This document shows positions 42,100 to 53,617 of a stretch of DNA of 64,000 bases, piece after piece. A program made the position numbers and the translations under genes. This stretch comes from Blastococcus mobilis (GTDB lineage Bacteria; Actinomycetota; Actinomycetes; Mycobacteriales; Geodermatophilaceae). The stretch covers positions 62,001-126,000 of the forward strand of contig NZ_FZNO01000008.1 in the NCBI RefSeq assembly GCF_900188025.1, read 5' to 3'. Each line of letters starts with the position of its first letter. Positions within the stretch are counted from its first letter, which is position 1. The notes beneath the pieces were generated by a model, which was not told the DNA's origin, searched no databases, and saw only the letters and a program-made list of their open reading frames with translations.

Positions 42100-43044
42100 T
42101 CAGGCCCGGGCGCGGATCGCGGCGAGCCAGGCGTCGGCCTCGGCGAAGGCGGGGTCGTCCGCCATCGCTGGCACCGGCCGGTTCTGGCGGCCGTCCGCCC
42201 GCGGGTAGGAGCCGAGGAAGCGGACGTCCTCGCACACGCGGTGCAGCGCGGCGAGTGCCTCGCCCACCCGGCGGTCGGCCACGTGCCCCTCGCAGTCGAG
42301 GGAGAACGAGTACACCCACTTCCGCTCCCGGGTGGGCCGGGACTCGATCCGGGTCAGTGAGATGTCACGGACGGAGAACTCGCGGAGCACGTCGAGCAGC
42401 GCGCCGGTCCGGTCCTCGACGACGACGACGAGCGAGGTCTTGTCGTTGCCTGTGGGAGCCGGCAGGACTCCGGCCGGCTCGACGAGGACGAACCGGGTCG
42501 CCGCCCCGGGGTGGTCGGCCAGATCCTCCACCACGGGGACCAGGCCGTAGCGCTCGGCGGCGATCGGGGCGCAGACGGCGGCGTCGTACTCCCCCGCCGC
42601 CACGGCCTCGGCGGCGGCGGCGGTGGACGACGTCGGCAGCGGGACGACGTCCGGGAGCAGCTCGGCCAGCCGGCCGGCGGTCTGGGCGAGCGCATGCGGA
42701 TGGCTGGCCACCGAACGCACGGCGGAGAGCTCGGTCCCCGGGCGGGCGGCCAGGACGAAGACGACGTCGAGGAAGACCTCGCGGGTGATCACCAGCGGCT
42801 CGCCGTCGGCCAGCCCGTCCATGGTGGCCGGCACCGAACCCTCGACGGAGTTCTCCAGCGGGACCAGCGCCGCGTCGGTGTCCCCCGAACGGACGGCGGC
42901 CAGCGCGGCCGGGACACTCGGCTGGGGGTACCTGGCTCCCTCCGAGGAGGCAACGGCGATGCTGAGCGCTGCTTCGGCGAAGGTACCCTCGGGCCCGAGA
43001 TAGGCGAACCGCGTCGGCGGCGTACTGGGTGACATCCCGGGCAT
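42100..43044 (-). CDS. pheA: Prephenate dehydratase
   Basis: This 314-residue enzyme converts prephenate to phenylpyruvate in phenylalanine synthesis. The catalytic domain starts RFAYLGPEGTFAEAAL and includes VPLENSVEGSV and LPTSSTAAAAEAV. The C-terminal ACT domain (about 205-285) has GALLDVLREF and the allosteric IESRPT motif, so feedback control by phenylalanine is expected. It is the monofunctional form, without chorismate mutase. The start may be MPGMSPS at 43044 or four residues inside. It is divergent from a GGDEF gene. Confidence 0.95.
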   Translation of the reverse strand: MPGMSPSTPPTRFAYLGPEGTFAEAALSIAVASSEGARYPQPSVPAALAAVRSGDTDAALVPLENSVEGSVPATMDGLADGEPLVITREVFLDVVFVLAARPGTELSAVRSVASHPHALAQTAGRLAELLPDVVPLPTSSTAAAAEAVAAGEYDAAVCAPIAAERYGLVPVVEDLADHPGAATRFVLVEPAGVLPAPTGNDKTSLVVVVEDRTGALLDVLREFSVRDISLTRIESRPTRERKWVYSFSLDCEGHVADRRVGEALAALHRVCEDVRFLGSYPRADGRQNRPVPAMADDPAFAEADAWLAAIRARA

Positions 43045-43154
43045 CCGACGAGGGTAGTGCGGGCGGGTGGGGCAGGTTCCCCACCCGGGGGAACTGCCTC
43101 GTCACCGGCAGACCCGGCCGTCCGGCGGCTGGCCGACCCGTCAGTGGAGGATGT

Positions 43155-44840
43155 GTGGTCCCCAGCCCGGCCCGTGTCGCTTCCGGCGACCTGACGGCCG
43201 CGCTGTGGCGCCTGCTGGACGCGAGCTCGCGCGAGGACTCCACCACCTTCCTCGCCCTCCTCGACGAGACCGAGACGACCCTCGGGGGGACCACCGAGCC
43301 GCGGTGGACGGCGTGGCGCCACGCGCTCGCCGCGCGGCGGGGACTGCTCGAGAGCGACCCGGAGGCCGCGGCCGAGGCGGTCTCGGCCGCCCGCGACGCC
43401 CTCGACACGTGCCCGCCGTCGGCGGAGACCGCCCTGACCCTGGCCTACCTGGCCCACGTCGAGGTCACCGCCGACCACTTCGACGCCGCGATGCTGCTGG
43501 CCGTCGACGCCAGCCTCCTGACCGAGGGCCCCACGGCCGGTGAGCCTTCCCGCGCCCTCCACCAGGCCCACCGGTGGCTGTCGCTGGCCCTGTCGGGGCT
43601 GGATCTCGAGGAGCTGGCCGTCTCCCACGCCGGCCGGGGCCACCGGATCGCCGCCGTGCTGCCCGATCTCGCCGACCAGTGGCAGCTGCTGCAGCTGGCG
43701 GCCCAGCAGCACGCCGAGCTGGCCCAGACCCTCCGCCGACGCGGCGACTCCGAGCGGGCCCGCGCGCTGGCCGCCGTCGCCATCGCCCAGGCGACCGAGG
43801 CGCGCGAGATGGCCTGGGAGCCCGACCCGGCGGACGCCGACCTGCTCGACGTCGTCCAGGCGTGGGCCATGACGTGCACCGACGAACTCGACCGGGCCCT
43901 GGGCCCCCTGCGCCGGGTGCGCCGCCGGGTCCAGCAGCACGGCGGGATGTGGCTGCGCGGGTACACTGACCTGGCCCTCGCCCGCCTGCTGGTGCGGATC
44001 GCCCGCCGCGACAACGACGACGAGTACGGCGAGGAGGCGGTCGGCCTCCTGGTGGACGCGGCCGGCGGCTTCGTCGCGTCGGGCGACCGCCGCCGCTACC
44101 GGCAGTGCCTGCTGGAGCTCGGCCAGAACTCCGCCGACCTGGGCCGGCCCGCCGAGGCCCTGCACTGGCTGGAGGCATACCGGGCCGACACCGGCCGGGC
44201 ACATTCCCGCGGCCGCGAGATGTGGGCGGAGATGTTCGTCCGCCGGAGCCGGCTCCGGGAGGCCGAACGCCAGGCGGCGCTGCTCCGCCGGCACGCCCTC
44301 GAGGACCCGCTCACCGGCCTCGGCAACCGGCGCAGCGCCGAACGCCGGCTGGGCGCCATGCGGCTGGGCGAGGAACCGCTGTCGCTGGCCGTCGTGGACG
44401 TGGACCGGTTCAAGGAGGTCAACGACGACACCTCGCACACCCACGGGGACGCCGTCCTGCGCCGGGTGGCCGACCTGCTGCGGGAGCACAGCCGGACCGG
44501 TGACGAGGTGTACCGGTGGGCGGGGGACGAGTTCCTCGTCGTCCTGCCGACGGCGACCGAGGCACAGGCCGTCGTCGTGATGGAGCGGCTGCGGTCGGCC
44601 GTCGCGGCCGCCGACTGGTCGGACCTGATCCCGGGCCCGGTGACGGTGAGCATCGGGGTGGCGACGGCGCCGGCGGTCGACGAGGGGCAGCCGGCGACGG
44701 TCGTGGGCTGGAGGGCACTGTTCGACACCGCCGACCTCAACCTGTTCTCCGCCAAGCGCAGCGGCCGCAACCGCGTGCGGGCCCCGGGCGGCGCGCCGGG
44801 CGAGGACGAGTCCGACGACCCCGCGCGGGACCCCGCGTGA
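43155..44840 (+). CDS. TPR-like diguanylate cyclase
   Basis: This 561-residue protein has a helical TPR-like N-terminal part (about 1-370) and a GGDEF domain (about 385-545) that should make cyclic di-GMP. The signature is AGDEF at 456-460, with RTGD five residues before it, which is the I-site for product inhibition. DVDRFKEVNDD supplies the Mg-binding Asp. No transmembrane segment or EAL domain is present. GTG 43155 follows GTGGAGG. It overlaps the next, paralogous gene by 4 bp (GTGA). Confidence 0.9.
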   Translation: MVPSPARVASGDLTAALWRLLDASSREDSTTFLALLDETETTLGGTTEPRWTAWRHALAARRGLLESDPEAAAEAVSAARDALDTCPPSAETALTLAYLAHVEVTADHFDAAMLLAVDASLLTEGPTAGEPSRALHQAHRWLSLALSGLDLEELAVSHAGRGHRIAAVLPDLADQWQLLQLAAQQHAELAQTLRRRGDSERARALAAVAIAQATEAREMAWEPDPADADLLDVVQAWAMTCTDELDRALGPLRRVRRRVQQHGGMWLRGYTDLALARLLVRIARRDNDDEYGEEAVGLLVDAAGGFVASGDRRRYRQCLLELGQNSADLGRPAEALHWLEAYRADTGRAHSRGREMWAEMFVRRSRLREAERQAALLRRHALEDPLTGLGNRRSAERRLGAMRLGEEPLSLAVVDVDRFKEVNDDTSHTHGDAVLRRVADLLREHSRTGDEVYRWAGDEFLVVLPTATEAQAVVVMERLRSAVAAADWSDLIPGPVTVSIGVATAPAVDEGQPATVVGWRALFDTADLNLFSAKRSGRNRVRAPGGAPGEDESDDPARDPA

Positions 44841-47686
44841 CCCTCTCCGCCTGGGACGCGTGGGACGCATCGGACGGGGGACGGCGCGTTTCCGAACATG
44901 TGCTCGACACCGGCACCTGCTCCGTGCACAGTGCGCTCGTGCCGCCCGGAGCTCTGCATCATCGGGTGACCGCCGCCCTGGCGAACTGGCAGCTCGACGA
45001 CGCCGAGGAGATGCTCTCCGGGGTCGAGCGGGAACCATCGCCCTACGTCGTCGCCGATCCGGCCGACGACGCGTCAGGGGACGCCCCCGGTTCGCTGGGC
45101 AAGGCCTGGGCCGACACCCTCCGGGCCGAGCTGCTGGTGCGCCGGCTGCGCGTCGCCGGTTTCACCCTCGTCGGCGATCCGGTGACCGCCGAGTCCTCCG
45201 CCGACGAGGCCCTGGACCTGCATGCCGGGGTGGCCGACCTCATCGAGGGCACCGGCGAGGAGGGCGACCCCCGGTCGGAGTCCGCCACCCGGGCCGCGCT
45301 CGCGATCGCGCTCGTCCGGTCGGCGAAGGCAGCGTTCGACGCCTCCGACGACCACCTGCAGCGCGCCGCCGGCCTGGCCCGGCACGCGCGGATCGAGCTG
45401 CTCTCCCGGCGCATCGACGCCGCCATGGACGAGGCCGTGGAGGCCGCGAGCCTGCTCGACCCGATCCTGCCGCCCAGCGCGCTCCTGGTGGAGACGCTCG
45501 GCACCCTCGCCGGGGTGCTCGCCGACCTCGAGCTGATGCCCCTGGCGCTGGACTACCAGCGGCGCGCGCACGAGGCCGCCATCACCGCCGCCACCGACCC
45601 GGACGCGCTGGGGTGGGCGGAGGACGGGGGTCCTGCCGAGGACCCCGACGTGCTGGTCGCCACCACGGCGACGTGCCTGGGCGAGCTGTGCGCGGAGCTG
45701 GGCGAGGGGCTGCTCGACGACGGCATGCCCGAGTCCGCCGGGGCGCACTTCGCCGAGGCCCGCGCGCTGGCCGAGAAGGCCCTCGAGTTCCTCCCCCCGG
45801 ACAGCGCCGGGATCGTTCCCGCGCAGGTCGTGCACGGCTGGGCGCTGGTCGGGCTCGGCGAGCACGCCGCCGCGGTGGGCCCGCTGCGCGCCGCCGTCCG
45901 CACGACGTCGGCCACCGCGGACCGCGCACAGCTGGCCTCGGCGCAGCTGGCGCTGGGCCGGGCCCTGCGCCGGGAGGGCGACGTCGGCGAGGCCGACGAG
46001 CACCTGGTCTCGACGTTGAACCTGGCCACCGAGCACGGCCTCCCCCGGCTTCGTCGCGCCGCCCTGCGCGAGCTGTGCACGCTGCACGCCGAGCTGGACG
46101 ACGCCGGCCGGGCCCTGCCCTACCTGCAGGCCTACCTCGCCGACGAGCTGGACCGGGTCGACGAGCGGCGCACCCGCTGGGTCGAGCTGTTCGGCCGGCG
46201 CAAGAGCCTGCTGGAGACCGAGCGCGCCGCAGGTCAGCTCCGCCGTCAGGCCTACGAGGACCCGCTCACCCACCTGCCCAACCGGCGCTACGCCGAGGCC
46301 CGGCTGGACGGGCTGCTCTCCAGCGGGGCGGCGCCCGCGCTGGCCGTCGTCGACGTGGACCGGTTCAAGTCCATCAACGACGCCATCGGCCACCCCGGCG
46401 GCGACTCGGTGCTGCGCACGGTCGCCGAGCTGCTCATCGAGGGCGTCCGCGACACCGACGAGGTGTGCCGCTGGGCCGGCGACGAGTACGTGGTCCTGCT
46501 GCCGGACACGACCGCCGAGCAGGCCGAGCGGGCCCTGGAGCGCACCCGCCGCAAGGTCGCCGCCTACGACTGGGCGCAGTTCGGCCTCGACGTCCCGGTG
46601 ACCATCAGCGTCGGGATCGCGTCGGCGGCCCGCGGCGACGACCGGCGGACCCTCTTCGCCGCCGCCGACGGCGTCCTCTACGACGCCAAGCGCAGCGGGC
46701 GCGACCGCGTCGTCCGCCTGTCGGGGGTGACCCAGACCCGGGCCCCCGCGGCCAGCCCGCTCGACGCGCTGTTCGGGCCGCCGCCGGTCGCCGCCGACAC
46801 GGCGGTGGACGCCGACACGACCGTCGGCGGTACCGCGGAGGACGACGCAGCGGCCGTTACTGTCGCCGCCGTGCAGCCGTCCCCGCTCCAGCCCGGCCCC
46901 GCCCCCGACGAGGCCGCCGGCTTCGCTCCGCTCCTGGTCGAGGCGCGCCCGGTCGACCCGCCGCTGGGCACCGGCAGCGCGACCGAGCCACTGCTCGGGC
47001 CCGTCCCCACCGCCGGGCCGGTTCCCGTGACGCCGATAGTCGAGCCGGCGGCGGCCCCGCGCCCCCTGGCATCGGCCGAGCCCGAGGTCATCTGGGCCAC
47101 CGGCCGCAGCACCGAACAGGTCCTGGTGCTGGTCCGCGAGGCCCGCCGCGAGCACCCCGACCGCCCGGCGCTGGTGCTGCGCGCCGCAGCCGAGACCCTG
47201 GTGGCGCTGGCCGGCGAGCACCACGCGTACACGACGATGGACGCCGCTGCGATGGCCGCTGCGGTCGGCCCCGTGCCCGAGCCGGTGGGCCGCGTGCACG
47301 TGCTGTGCGCCGGTGGCGCCGACACCCCCGTGGCCGCCGAGGCCGCCTTCGTCGCCCGGGTCACCGGCACCGAGGTTCTCCGGATGGACGACGTCGCCGG
47401 TAGTCGCATCCGCGGTGTGCTGGCCGACGGCTCGCTGTTCGGCGACGCGGACTGCCTGGTCGTCGTCGCCGGTATGGACGCCGCGCTCGCCGCGATGGTC
47501 GGCGCCATGGCCGACGTCCCCGTCGTGGCGGTGCCGACGTCGACCGGCGCCCCGAACGCCTTCGCCGGGCTCGGCGCGCTCATGACGATGCTGAACTCGG
47601 CCGCGCCGGGCGTCGCCATCAGCAACATCGACAACGGCTACTCCGCGGGCGTGTTCGCCGCGAGAGTGGCTCGCCGAGCCCGCTGA
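44837..47686 (+). CDS. TPR-diguanylate cyclase fused to a degenerate LarB-like domain
   Basis: This 949-residue protein is a single frame. Residues 1-450 are TPR-like helices; 455-625 are a GGDEF domain with AGDEY at 547-551 and an I-site RDTD five residues before; 640-750 are an Ala/Pro-rich linker; 751-949 resemble LarB, the NaAD carboxylase/hydrolase of nickel-pincer cofactor synthesis. The LarB part keeps VLCAGGADTPVAAEAA, VVVAGMDAALA, VAVPTSTG and SNIDNGYSAG, but the MLNSC motif is MLNSA: Ala922 replaces the expected catalytic Cys. DVGVAG and GYG motifs are also altered. An internal GTG at 46871 could in principle start a separate protein but has no Shine-Dalgarno. The LarB part is probably non-catalytic, perhaps a nucleotide sensor. 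Confidence 0.85.
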   Translation: MTLSAWDAWDASDGGRRVSEHVLDTGTCSVHSALVPPGALHHRVTAALANWQLDDAEEMLSGVEREPSPYVVADPADDASGDAPGSLGKAWADTLRAELLVRRLRVAGFTLVGDPVTAESSADEALDLHAGVADLIEGTGEEGDPRSESATRAALAIALVRSAKAAFDASDDHLQRAAGLARHARIELLSRRIDAAMDEAVEAASLLDPILPPSALLVETLGTLAGVLADLELMPLALDYQRRAHEAAITAATDPDALGWAEDGGPAEDPDVLVATTATCLGELCAELGEGLLDDGMPESAGAHFAEARALAEKALEFLPPDSAGIVPAQVVHGWALVGLGEHAAAVGPLRAAVRTTSATADRAQLASAQLALGRALRREGDVGEADEHLVSTLNLATEHGLPRLRRAALRELCTLHAELDDAGRALPYLQAYLADELDRVDERRTRWVELFGRRKSLLETERAAGQLRRQAYEDPLTHLPNRRYAEARLDGLLSSGAAPALAVVDVDRFKSINDAIGHPGGDSVLRTVAELLIEGVRDTDEVCRWAGDEYVVLLPDTTAEQAERALERTRRKVAAYDWAQFGLDVPVTISVGIASAARGDDRRTLFAAADGVLYDAKRSGRDRVVRLSGVTQTRAPAASPLDALFGPPPVAADTAVDADTTVGGTAEDDAAAVTVAAVQPSPLQPGPAPDEAAGFAPLLVEARPVDPPLGTGSATEPLLGPVPTAGPVPVTPIVEPAAAPRPLASAEPEVIWATGRSTEQVLVLVREARREHPDRPALVLRAAAETLVALAGEHHAYTTMDAAAMAAAVGPVPEPVGRVHVLCAGGADTPVAAEAAFVARVTGTEVLRMDDVAGSRIRGVLADGSLFGDADCLVVVAGMDAALAAMVGAMADVPVVAVPTSTGAPNAFAGLGALMTMLNSAAPGVAISNIDNGYSAGVFAARVARRAR

Positions 47687-47797
47687 GGGGTGTGGACCCG
47701 GCGCGGGGGCCGGAGGCTCCCCGGCGGGGACACGGGCCGCGGTTCAGGTCGACCGGGGTACGGCACCTGGCAGTGTGATCCGGAGGATCACGATGTC
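47687..47797 (-). repeat. Family A intergenic repeat, copy 3
   Basis: Read on the minus strand it contains GTGATCCTCCGGATCAC, CCAGGTGCCGTACCCC, GCGGCCCGTGTCCCC, GGGGAGCCTCCGGCCCCCGC and a CCGGGTCCACACCCC end. The TGA of the first palindrome is the pxpC stop codon itself (47788-47790). It separates pxpC from the GGDEF-LarB gene. Confidence 0.88.
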
Positions 47798-48651
47798 ATC
47801 GCCTTGAAGCGCAGTGTCTGCCCGGGTCGCAACTGCCCGCACCGGTCGACGTCACTGCGGATCGGCTCGTCGGCCACGTAGCCGATCACCGGATAGCCGC
47901 CGGTCACGGGGTGGTCGGCCAGGAACAGCACGGGCAGGCCGGACGGCGGCACCTGCAGCGCACCGCGGACCATTCCCTCGCTGGGCAGCTCACCACCGCG
48001 CAACCGTTCCAGGGGCGTGCCGTCCAGCCGCAGACCGACCCGGTTGCTCTCGTCGGTCACCGTCCAGACCTGCCCGGTCAGCGCCGTCCAGCCCGCGTCG
48101 CCGAACCAGTCGGCGCGTGGCCCGGGCAGCACCGCCACGGTGACCTCGCCGCCAGGGATGTCGGGGACCGGCGCCACGTCGACCCCGGGCACCGGCTCGA
48201 TGGGGGCGCCGATCGGCAGCACGTCGCCGTCGGCCACCGCCGCCGGTCCCAGCCCGGACAGCACGTCGGTGGCGCGCGACCCGAGCACCGGGGGGACGTC
48301 GATACCCCCGCGGACGGCGAGGTAGGTGCGCAGCCCGGTCTCGGGGGGCCCCAGCCGCAGCTCGGTGCCGCGCCGGAGCGGGGTGGGCGCGGCATGCGGG
48401 AACGGTCCCGCGCAGCGCGCGCCGGTCGTGACCACCATCAGGTCGGCCTCCGCCCGCACCGCCAGCCCGCCGTAGGTCGCCTCCAGGACCGCGAAGTCCT
48501 CCGGGTTGCCGACGAGCCGGTTGGCCTGCCGGTACACCGACCGGTCACAGGCACCTGAGCGCACGATGCCGAGCGCGGCCTGCCCGGGCCGGCCGGCGTC
48601 CTGCACCGTGGTGAAGGGACCCGCTCTCAGCACGGTGAGGGCGCGCGTCAT
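47788..48651 (-). CDS. pxpC: 5-oxoprolinase subunit C (carboxyltransferase AHS2-like)
   Basis: This 287-residue protein is one part of the prokaryotic ATP-dependent 5-oxoprolinase PxpABC, which opens pyroglutamate to glutamate. It shows the AHS2/KipA features: TTVQDAGRPG, GIVRSGACDRSVYRQANRLV (partial), the RGGIDVPPVLGSRATD motif and SEGMVRGALQVPPSGLPV. Its ATG overlaps the pxpB stop (ATGA at 48648-48651). Its stop codon lies within a family A repeat. Confidence 0.93.
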   Translation of the reverse strand: MTRALTVLRAGPFTTVQDAGRPGQAALGIVRSGACDRSVYRQANRLVGNPEDFAVLEATYGGLAVRAEADLMVVTTGARCAGPFPHAAPTPLRRGTELRLGPPETGLRTYLAVRGGIDVPPVLGSRATDVLSGLGPAAVADGDVLPIGAPIEPVPGVDVAPVPDIPGGEVTVAVLPGPRADWFGDAGWTALTGQVWTVTDESNRVGLRLDGTPLERLRGGELPSEGMVRGALQVPPSGLPVLFLADHPVTGGYPVIGYVADEPIRSDVDRCGQLRPGQTLRFKAMTS

Positions 48652-49265
48652 CGTGAGCCCGCGTCGACGAAGCGCACCCCGACCCCGGGGCGCAGCAGTG
48701 CCGGGGGATCGCGGTCCAGGTCGAAGACGGCGACATCGGTCCGCCCGATGAGCTGCCAGCCACCCGGGGACTCGCGCGGGTAGACGCCGCTGAACTCACC
48801 GGCGAGCGCGACCGACCCCGGTGGCACCTTGGTGCGCGGCGTCGACCGGCGCGGCACGTCCCACTGACCGCCGGGCTGGGTGAGGTAGCCGAAGCCGGGG
48901 GCGAAGCCGCCGAAGGCGACGATCCACTCCTTGCCCGTGTGCCGGTGCACCAGCTCCTCCGGGCTCAGGTCCAGCAGCCCCGCGAGGTCCTCGAGGTCCT
49001 CCCCGTCGTAGTGCACCGGCAGCTCGACGACCTCCCCGCCGGCCCGGGCATCGGGCCGCGGCGTCGCGGCCCGGACGGCGTCGGCCACCGCGGACAGCGA
49101 GGTCCGGCCCGGACCGGTCACCAGCAGCACGGTGCGGGCGGCGGGGACGATGTCGACCACGCCGTCCGGCGGCTGCTCGGCGAGCGCGGCGTAGAGCGCG
49201 AGGACGGCGTCCAGATCGTCCAGCTCCACCAGCAGCGCCGTGCTGCCGCTCGGGAGGACCCGCAT
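48648..49265 (-). CDS. pxpB: 5-oxoprolinase subunit B (AHS1/KipI-like)
   Basis: This 205-residue protein is the KipI/AHS1 subunit, partner of PxpC. It has LPVHYDGEDLEDLA, the conserved FGGFAPGFGYL motif and RRSTPRTKVPPGSVALAG. Start ATG 49265 overlaps the pxpA stop by one base (TGATG); the longer frame upstream lies inside pxpA and is rejected. The set pxpA-pxpB-pxpC is in conserved order. Confidence 0.93.
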   Translation of the reverse strand: MRVLPSGSTALLVELDDLDAVLALYAALAEQPPDGVVDIVPAARTVLLVTGPGRTSLSAVADAVRAATPRPDARAGGEVVELPVHYDGEDLEDLAGLLDLSPEELVHRHTGKEWIVAFGGFAPGFGYLTQPGGQWDVPRRSTPRTKVPPGSVALAGEFSGVYPRESPGGWQLIGRTDVAVFDLDRDPPALLRPGVGVRFVDAGSR

Positions 49266-50026
49266 CACGGTGCGAACGGGGTCAGGGCCGCGCCGGCCGC
49301 CGTCAGCGCCTGCCGCACCTGGCGGGCGATCTCGACCGCACCGGAGGTGTCGCCGTGCACACAGATCGAGTCCGGTCGCAGGGTCAGCGAACCGCCGTCG
49401 ACGTCCTGGATCGGCTCTCCGGCGGCCATCGCGACACAGCGCCGGGCGATCTCGTCCGGGTCGTGCAGCACCGCACCGGGCAGCCGCCGGGACACCAACG
49501 TGCCTTCCGGCGTGTAGGCACGGTCGGCGAAGGCTTCGTGCACCACGGTCAGCCCGGCGTCGGCCGCCTGCCGCAACCACGCCGAGCCGGGCAGGCCCAG
49601 CACCGGCAGCGTGCGGTCGTAGGCGAGGACGGCGCGGACGACGGCGGCCGCCTGCTCCTCGTGGTGGACGATCGCGTTGTAGAGCGCACCGTGCGGCTTG
49701 ACGTAGCACACCCGCGAGCCTGCGACGCGGGCGAAGGCCTCGAGCGCACCGATCTGGTAGATCACGTCCGCGGTCAGCGCGTCGGGCTCCATGTCGATGA
49801 AGCGGCGGCCGAACCCGGCCAGGTCCCGGTAGCCGACCTGGGCGCCGATCGCGACACCGGAGTCGACGGCCCGCGCGCACACCCGGCTCATGATCGAGGG
49901 GTCGCTGGCGTGGAATCCGCAGGCGACGTTGGCGCTGGTGACGATGTCGAGCAGGGCGTCGTCGTCACCGAGCGTCCACTGCCCGAACCCCTCGCCGAGG
50001 TCGGAGTTCAAGTCCACGCTGGGCAT
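49265..50026 (-). CDS. pxpA: 5-oxoprolinase subunit A (LamB/YcsF family)
   Basis: This 253-residue protein carries the LamB/YcsF signature from the start: [40 protein letters not shown] and VKPHGALYN. PxpA provides the hydrolase part of the 5-oxoprolinase complex. It follows the NRAMP-like gene by 7 bp and is coupled to pxpB. Confidence 0.95.
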
Positions 50027-52438: not shown

Positions 52439-53617
52439 ATGATCGGGTGGCTGGACCTCTCCGCCGGTGCGTCCGGGGACATGCTGCTCGGCGCGCTGGT
52501 GGATGCCGGGGTGCCCCTCGAGGTCCCGGCCGGCGCCGTCGCCGCGCTGCCGGTGGAGCGGATCCGGCTGGTCACCGAGTCGGTCACCCGGCACGGGCTG
52601 GGCGCGACCCGGGTGCACGTGCAGGCGCCGACGTCCTCGGCACACCGCACGTGGGCGGACGTCCGTGCGCTGCTCGGGCAGGCGGCCCTGCCCGGGCCGG
52701 TCCGCGACGGCGCCCTCGCGGTCTTCGAACGGCTGGCGATCGCCGAGGGCCGGGTCCACCGGGTCTCCCCCGACGACGTCCACTTCCACGAGGTCGGAGC
52801 CCTGGACGCGCTGGCCGACGTCGTCGGGGTGGTGGCCGCCTTCGAGCACCTCGGGCTGTCCCGCCTCGCCGCGTCGCCGATCACGCTGGGCAGCGGCACG
52901 GCCCGTGGCGCGCACGGCGTCGTCCCCATCCCGGGCCCCGCGGTGCTGGAGCTGCTGACCGGCGTCCCGGTGGTGGCGGGCGCGGTCGCCGCCGAGATGT
53001 GCACCCCCACCGGGGCGGCGCTGGTGGCCGCCCGCGTCGGCGAGTGGACGACGCTGCCGCCGATGCGGGTCGAGCGGGTGGGGGTGGGCGCCGGTGGGCG
53101 GGACCCGGTGGAGCTGCCGAACGTCGTCCGGCTGGTCCTCGGCGAGCCGGCGCACCCGCAGCCGGCGAGCCCGGTCGTCCTGGAGGCGAACATCGACGAC
53201 CTCGACCCGCGGCTGTGGCCCGGCGTCCTGGACGCCCTGTTGGCCGCCGGGGCCTCCGATGCCTGGCTGACCCCGATCCTGATGAAGAAGGGCCGCCCGG
53301 CGTACGCGCTGTCGGTGTTGTGCCGTCCGGAGCTGGTCGACGAGGTGGAGGCGGTGGTCTTCGCCACGACGTCGACCATCGGCATGCGGGTCGTCCCCGT
53401 GGGCAAGGTGGCCCTCGAGCGGGTCCCGGCCTCGGTGGAGGTGCTCGGCGCCCGGGTGGGCGTGAAGGTGGCGGTCGCGGGCGGGCGCGTGGTCAACGTC
53501 AGCGTCGAGTACGAGGACGTCGCCGCGCTGGCCCGCGACGCCGGCGTTCCGGTGAAGGAGGCCCTGCGGGCGGCCACCGCCGCCGCCGAGGCCGCCTACC
53601 CGGTCATGCGGACCTGA
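52439..53617 (+). CDS. larC: Nickel insertion protein LarC
   Basis: This 392-residue protein should insert Ni into the pincer nucleotide cofactor of lactate racemase-type enzymes, using CTP. It has DLSAGASGDMLLGAL at the start, VHFHEVGALDALADVVG, the EANIDDLDPRLW segment and LTPILMKKGRPA. In Lactobacillus larC is split by a programmed frameshift; here it is one open frame. No larE or larA is in the window, and the only LarB-like sequence is the degenerate fusion at 44837-47686. The ATG at 52439 lies 43 bp after a family A repeat. Confidence 0.93.
   Translation: MIGWLDLSAGASGDMLLGALVDAGVPLEVPAGAVAALPVERIRLVTESVTRHGLGATRVHVQAPTSSAHRTWADVRALLGQAALPGPVRDGALAVFERLAIAEGRVHRVSPDDVHFHEVGALDALADVVGVVAAFEHLGLSRLAASPITLGSGTARGAHGVVPIPGPAVLELLTGVPVVAGAVAAEMCTPTGAALVAARVGEWTTLPPMRVERVGVGAGGRDPVELPNVVRLVLGEPAHPQPASPVVLEANIDDLDPRLWPGVLDALLAAGASDAWLTPILMKKGRPAYALSVLCRPELVDEVEAVVFATTSTIGMRVVPVGKVALERVPASVEVLGARVGVKVAVAGGRVVNVSVEYEDVAALARDAGVPVKEALRAATAAAEAAYPVMRT

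Follow-up and report, generated by a model that had tools for sequence, protein, structure and literature searches.

A LarB-derived domain without the catalytic cysteine is fused to a GGDEF domain in most Geodermatophilaceae genomes and is very probably regulatory

What is the role of an enzyme domain of nickel-pincer nucleotide synthesis that has lost its catalytic cysteine and is found at the end of a GGDEF protein? The question is raised by a gene of Blastococcus mobilis that lies in a stretch of 64,000 nucleotides (contig NZ_FZNO01000008.1), called the window below. The gene covers positions 44837-47686 (+), and, as a first-pass annotation had stated, it is one continuous open frame of 949 codons, without a stop or frameshift between its GGDEF and LarB-like parts. 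The same annotation had divided the protein into a TPR-like, a GGDEF, and a LarB-like part, and the latter two were recovered, including the I-site. In the first part (residues about 41-460; 44957-46216 (+)) the TPR_12 match (E = 0.0018, 18.9 bits) was below the Pfam cut-off of 30.1 bits, although the AlphaFold model of the full protein contained confident helix pairs at about residues 270-430; this TPR-like part is called the helical-repeat region here. It is followed by the GGDEF domain (residues 472-624; 46250-46708 (+); Pfam E = 1.5e-36) with the I-site RDTD (R538 and D541; 46448-46459 (+)) and the active-site motif AGDEY (residues 547-551; 46475-46489 (+)). Next is a Pro/Ala-rich linker (residues about 631-745; 46727-47071 (+)), which is predicted to be disordered and evolves fastest of all parts, and the C-terminal domain (residues 747-946; 47075-47674 (+)), called pseudo-LarB below. 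In the full-length model the residues 622-745 had pLDDT values below 50 and the mean pLDDT was only 67.3, so it gives no domain arrangement.

The GTG start of the fused gene overlaps the stop codon of an upstream GGDEF gene (43029-44840 (+), start uncertain). Over 497 columns, the product of the upstream gene shares 38% identity with residues 164-641 of the fused protein, and, thus, the two genes are probably tandem duplicates, as judged by this similarity. The upstream protein has the motif AGDEF and, by eye, the I-site RTGD, and the overlapping genes thus encode a pair of GGDEF proteins whose repeat regions are related.

The NCBIfam LarB profile matched residues 747-946 with E = 1.3e-45 and 155.7 bits. 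This is less than the cut-off of 175 bits, so that the domain is LarB-like, yet below the equivalog threshold for a functional LarB. Also the fused relatives were all below this cut-off, with scores of 117-172 bits, 60.9 bits for one genome (G017), and 114-136 bits for the partial pieces of another (G014). The Pfam profile AIRC, which is PurE-like, matched residues 871-945 (E = 1.3e-7, 31.7 bits, cut-off 30), and the sequences of LarB structures in the PDB matched the domain with E = 4.6e-33 (8soq) and E = 8.8e-33 (7mj0), the match to the LarB of L. plantarum starting only at its residue 46. An AlphaFold model of the domain, built as a monomer from a 31-row alignment, had a mean pLDDT of 87.3. 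Superposition with 27 LarB crystal chains resulted in TM scores of 0.77-0.84, and the top Foldseek match was 7mj0_C (E = 2e-18, TM 0.80), whereas PurE chains reached 0.46-0.51 among the matches listed. PurE (N5-CAIR mutase) is distantly homologous to the C-terminal half of pseudo-LarB (AIRC), but the nearest relative is LarB. Compared with the LarB crystal structures (PDB 7mj0-7mj2, 8soq, 8stc, 8std), pseudo-LarB has the same fold, 38-40% identity in the structural alignment, and the same place ahead of larC; in contrast to them, it lacks the catalytic cysteine, has altered pocket loops, is fused to a GGDEF domain, and occurs also in genomes without the pathway genes. The larC gene of the window (PF01969 Ni_insertion) is located 4.8 kb downstream of the fused gene at 52448-53560 (+) (G000:C61:114448-115560; coordinates taken from the profile match). 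Profile, fold, and synteny with larC show that the C-terminal domain is LarB by descent. The first-pass proposal is supported in this respect, and also in that the former LarB is fused to a GGDEF protein, lacks the catalytic cysteine, and is kept for another purpose.

Three genes on the opposite strand (47788-50026 (-)) lie between the fusion and larC in the window; by eye they encode the 5-oxoprolinase subunits PxpC, PxpB, and PxpA. The same 5-oxoprolinase-like block of three genes was seen at this place in G003, G006, G010, and G012. A separate, weak LarB-profile match elsewhere in the genome of the window (G000:C40:294-674) is probably purE.

Cys221 of LarB reportedly attaches covalently to the pyridine ring. 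A residue census was based on an alignment of 31 fused domains, 29 Cys-type LarBs, and the LarB of L. plantarum, from which the numbering is taken. Cys221 was present in 29 of 29 Cys-type LarBs and in none of the 31 fused domains, which have Ala (22), Ser (4), Thr (2), Pro (2), or Gly (1) at this position. In the window it is Ala922 (47600-47602 (+)), and, thus, the alignment agrees with the replacement noted at first sight. The best 80 of 88 GTDB loci, which overlap the set of 31, had Ala in 62 cases, Ser in 8, Thr in 4, Gly in 3, and Pro in 1, with one gap and one uncovered position. The motifs of the window were also changed as annotated: DVGVAGIHR became DVAGSRIRG and SVGYG became STGAP, while the NIDNG core is unchanged. 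Ser127, Gly156, Arg159, Gly181, Tyr204, Gly205, and Gly235 were absent from all 31 fused domains, and His158 was retained in only four of them. Six of these residues (Ser127, Gly156, His158, Arg159, Tyr204, and Gly205) were each found in 28 or 29 of the 29 Cys-type LarBs. Glu180 of L. plantarum is replaced by Asp in the window, which was not counted as a loss because the Cys-type relatives among the sequences listed also carry Asp or Glu there. Other positions were retained, i.e., Asp128 in 30 of 31 fused domains and Glu134, Asp151, Pro199, Thr200, Ser201, Gly203, Asp231, and Gly233 in all of them.

These results bear on the possibility that the domain senses a nucleotide, as the first-pass annotation had suggested. 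LarB has been reported to convert NaAD to P2CMN (PMC11796402, PMC9283937), and pseudo-LarB might bind nicotinate nucleotides without catalysis and couple NAD or nickel-pincer status to c-di-GMP. The LarB ancestry, the fold, and the partly retained pocket would fit such a sensor, but it is unlikely because several pocket residues are gone, namely Ser127, Arg159, Tyr204, and Cys221 in all 31 domains and His158 in 27 of them. The suggestion is thus not supported in its original form, six pocket residues (the six named above) being present in 0-4 of 31 fused domains, and it is weakened further by a shift of conservation to the N-terminal subdomain (see below). Some ligand is still allowed by the retained Asp128, Thr200, Ser201, and Asp231, which would be compatible with a ligand site and equally with a structural role.

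The fused-type LarB was present in 101 of 112 genomes of the Geodermatophilaceae, actinobacteria that live in soil and on rock; this count is possibly a lower bound. A family search with the LarB domain as query found 105 of the 112 genomes at E <= 1e-40; five of these had only an unfused Cys-type LarB (G023, G025, G032, G348, and G349), and G017, which was missed, maybe since just 27 of 29 candidates were scored, has a fused copy known otherwise (E = 8.7e-52) and was counted. The 31 domains, the best 80 of 88 GTDB loci, which overlap them, and 12 further loci were examined in full, and for the remaining loci the fused type was inferred from identity and frame length. None of the fully examined fused relatives has Cys at the Cys221 column. 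In 90 of the 101 genomes the frame is open over 885 codons or more. Eight fused genes run into a contig end (G006, G303, G309, G319, G353, G367, G368, and G370), and three are broken inside a contig, by error or real splitting: G009 (L040) has a single in-frame stop where the GGDEF part begins, and in G363 (L183) and G329 (L184) GGDEF and LarB are in different frames. The assemblies of these three genomes consist of one or two contigs each. The frame from GGDEF to LarB was open in 74 of the best 80 of 88 GTDB loci and cut at the contig start in the other six. These loci belong to Blastococcus, Geodermatophilus, Modestobacter, Klenkia, Goekera, and Trujillonella, or are assigned only to the family, and a single title outside Geodermatophilaceae is flagged 'UNVERIFIED_ORG: Bacillus sp.'. 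Chance is excluded by a recurrence of this extent, with the long frame in 90 of the 101 genomes, and a sequencing or frameshift artefact in the window is ruled out by the continuous frames of the GTDB loci and of these 90 genomes. Only one near-complete genome of a fusion-bearing genus (G352, genus g4, 99% complete) had no fused-type LarB at E <= 1e-40, and it also had no match to LarB, LarE, or LarC.

Outside the family, no GGDEF-LarB fusion was found in a class sample of 246 genomes, 60 of which had a LarB match at E <= 1e-25; the seven longest LarB frames besides that of the window were examined and had no GGDEF match, and for the others the judgement was based on frame length and score. 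One locus of the same class (L173, G199:C25:71160-77561) has a frame of 680 amino acids with a partial LarB followed by a C-terminus that is LarE-like by eye, perhaps a deletion remnant.

Comparison of gene orders revealed how the fusion is placed. A pheA gene (prephenate dehydratase, by eye) precedes the Cys-type larB in nine of 14 larB-larC loci, with a spacing of 120-275 bases in the closest ones (e.g., L064, L065, L069, and L072), and no GGDEF match was found near larB-larC in these 14 loci. Loci with the fusion have the order pheA, GGDEF, GGDEF-LarB. Among the fused loci of 31 relatives, larC comes after the fusion at a distance of up to about 1 kb in 19 and beyond three opposite-strand genes in four, as in the genome of the window; no larC was seen in seven, and one locus is cut. 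The gene order thus changed from pheA / larB-larC to pheA / GGDEF / GGDEF-LarB / larC, and the larC of the window is the remnant of a former larB-larC unit. The ancestral LarB gene, ahead of larC, would have been joined to a repeat-GGDEF gene that had newly come in, and the fused LarB would then have lost its catalytic residues and been retained as a non-catalytic module of the diguanylate cyclase. A search of 61 genomes detected the repeat region in 32, all of which have a fused-type LarB as well (the two are on separate contigs in G006), and, thus, no unfused intermediate was found among these 61 genomes.

The LarB tree was in agreement with a single origin. All 31 fused LarBs formed one clade (support 100/100) apart from the Cys-type, with a stem length of 0.85 changes per column. 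A separate clade (support 99/99) was formed by the LarE-associated LarBs, while the larB-larC type was not one clade, and the L. plantarum LarB and L062 were long branches. A LarE-associated LarB exists also in the fusion-less genus g6 (L088 and L089, the former adjoining LarE), so that, by this distribution, the first LarB may have lost catalysis at a time when a second one was already there.

Besides the fused type, 63 of the 101 fusion-type genomes have a second LarB that scored higher than the curated cut-off. All 14 examined copies have the cysteine and 13 of them adjoin LarE, i.e., 12 of 13 of the LarE-associated type and the one in the larE-larB-larC cluster of G027. The genome of the window has such a Cys-bearing LarB beside LarE (G000:C77), which rules out that the fused LarB is its only, and hence working, LarB. 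With thresholds of E <= 1e-58 for LarB (above the cut-off), E <= 1e-30 for LarE, and E <= 1e-20 for LarC, 62 of the 101 genomes had all three, one had LarB and LarC, ten had only LarC, and 28 had none. The respective numbers for the 91 genomes that are at least 90% complete were 56, 1, 6, and 28. The LarB of the only genome with LarB and LarC (G372) lies at a contig end. Neither LarB nor LarE was matched in 34 of the 91 genomes and the fusion type was retained in them, and, thus, it does not depend on the pathway. On a tree of the repeat and GGDEF regions (30 rows, seven of them pathway-less) the pathway state changes at least five times; four changes are forced by well-supported branches, and one of these may be a regain (G027).

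Could the fused protein nevertheless belong to the pathway, with residual activity or as a partner of LarC or of the true LarB in cofactor synthesis? The close larC in 19 of the 31 relatives' loci speaks for this, as does LarC without LarB and LarE in six near-complete fusion-type genomes, which could be a link of the fusion to LarC, but the 28 of 91 near-complete genomes without a match to any of the three proteins make it the least probable of all readings. The retention of the fusion in genomes without LarB, LarE, and LarC matches also argues against the NaAD sensor discussed above, though NaAD is presumably present there. In six LarC-only genomes (G033, G303, G313, G315, G318, and G339) the larC gene is next to the fused gene (3.6 kb in G318). 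The LarC scores of the first five were 312-362 bits, compared with at least 396 bits for other full-length LarCs in a single piece, and LarC, too, may be decaying or changing its role in these genomes.

The Nei-Gojobori method was applied to the fused gene of the window and those of seven relatives of the same genus. The dN/dS of the LarB domain was 0.15-0.25, similar to the repeat region (0.16-0.25) and the GGDEF domain (0.09-0.22), while the linker had 0.26-0.81 and was above the LarB domain in all seven comparisons. In five of the 12 lowest-dS pairs listed the LarB domain had values of 0.41-0.53, all five between genera, for which the method is weak. Pathway-less pairs had higher values (0.17, 0.34, and 0.18) than pairs with the pathway (0.12 and 0.09). 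Pseudo-LarB is thus under purifying selection, and the constraint is at most moderate. A passenger domain that is tolerated without function and decays slowly is very improbable: two frame changes and one stop among 101 genomes, the loss of one loop of the domain in L062, and the between-genus values above would be in line with it, but not the same-genus values, the presence in 101 of 112 genomes, and the 42 columns that are invariant across 31 fused sequences.

The constraint has a new distribution. In 13 genomes the fused domains had a mean identity of 0.789 for the N-terminal subdomain and of 0.701 for the C-terminal, catalytic one, whereas the Cys-type LarBs of the same genomes had the reverse pattern (0.709 and 0.934, respectively); none of 500 column permutations was as extreme as this reversal. 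The constraint on pseudo-LarB is thus real, but it is shifted from the active site toward the N-terminal subdomain. This bears on the main rival explanation, a re-specialised ligand sensor, in which the old cleft would bind a new small molecule, perhaps an anionic one via the arginines of the GSRxR motif, and control GGDEF. Its rank as the main rival is due to the retention of Asp128, Thr200, and Ser201 and to two new arginines, Arg857 (28 of 31) and Arg859 (22 of 31) at the positions of Gly156 and His158; the retained Asp231 and the purifying selection point in the same direction. However, conservation is now weaker in the catalytic half than in the other one, and the residue in the cysteine column varies (Ala, Ser, Thr, Gly, or Pro), so that this explanation is rather doubtful.

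The GGDEF domain scored 126.1 bits with the Pfam profile (cut-off 23.8). Of 18 active-site and I-site positions, which we take to be metal-binding, GTP-binding, and I-site residues, 17 were invariant in all 31 rows, among them D506, F510, K511, N514, D515, D549, and E550, and the remaining one is Phe or Tyr. The first residue of the motif is Ala and not Gly, i.e., AGDE[FY] in all 31 rows, and AGDEF was found in 70 and AGDEY in four of the best 80 of 88 GTDB loci, six being uncovered. A Vibrio cyclase with the AGDEF motif is reported to be active and to produce c-di-GMP (PMC3974145). A c-di-GMP receptor has been reported for the family, as the c-di-GMP-binding anti-sigma factor RsiG is listed for 16 of 16 Geodermatophilaceae species (PMC8325347). 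Judged by its residues, the diguanylate cyclase of the fused protein is likely to be active. Its closest NCBIfam cyclase matches were SiaD and PRK09894, both below the cut-off, and SiaD, PleD, and DgcR were found among the structural matches. Cyclases of this type, which have a regulatory N-terminal region, share the GGDEF domain with an I-site, but the fused protein differs from them by its helical-repeat N-terminus and the C-terminal pseudo-LarB. GGDEF domains elsewhere have C-terminal partners such as EAL.

The dead LarB is, thus, very probably now a regulatory part of a c-di-GMP-making enzyme. That it is a pseudoenzyme with a new role outside the pathway appears highly probable from sequence comparison, i.e., from the common origin, the lost cysteine and pocket residues, the purifying selection, the survival without pathway genes, and the intact cyclase residues. 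An assembly or docking module of the diguanylate cyclase fits best with a dead LarB under selection, the conservation shift toward the N-terminal subdomain, and the long disordered linker, and we give this reading a probability of about 0.5. LarB is said to be octameric, like PurE, and an octameric pseudo-LarB could therefore bring several GGDEF domains together via the long flexible linker. The N-terminal subdomain, with its newly gained conservation, could serve as a binding site for the cyclase itself or for a partner, and signals might be taken in by the helical-repeat region. A bolder view is put forward only tentatively, namely that a nickel-pincer enzyme has become a regulatory domain that responds to a ligand. 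A metabolite, either an NAD-type nucleotide or a new ligand of the remodelled cleft, would then directly set c-di-GMP throughout the family.

Neither pseudoenzyme domains nor C-terminal partners of GGDEF are new as such. A description of a GGDEF-LarB fusion was not found in the openly accessible portions of the literature on LarB, GGDEF, AIR carboxylase, pseudoenzyme cyclases, and Geodermatophilaceae cyclases. As far as this literature and the class sample reach, the pairing of pseudo-LarB with GGDEF is a new variant. It adds the LarB/PurE fold to the list of domains attached to c-di-GMP cyclases and offers a family-wide and clearly ordered example of the change from enzyme to signalling module. 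Unfused larB-larC, the fused state, a Cys-bearing paralogue, and pathway-less genomes exist side by side, so that the birth and upkeep of pseudoenzyme domains, usually hard to test, become directly testable. For annotation, a LarB-like match in a Geodermatophilaceae genome is no evidence for nickel-pincer synthesis, because the 34 near-complete fusion-type genomes mentioned above have neither a LarB above the cut-off nor LarE.

A possible user of the cofactor was seen in the genome of the window (L180, G000:C40:49000-53500). It is a LarA-family match (PF09861, 81.6 bits), located between frames that by eye encode a LacI-type regulator and a family-3 glycosidase.
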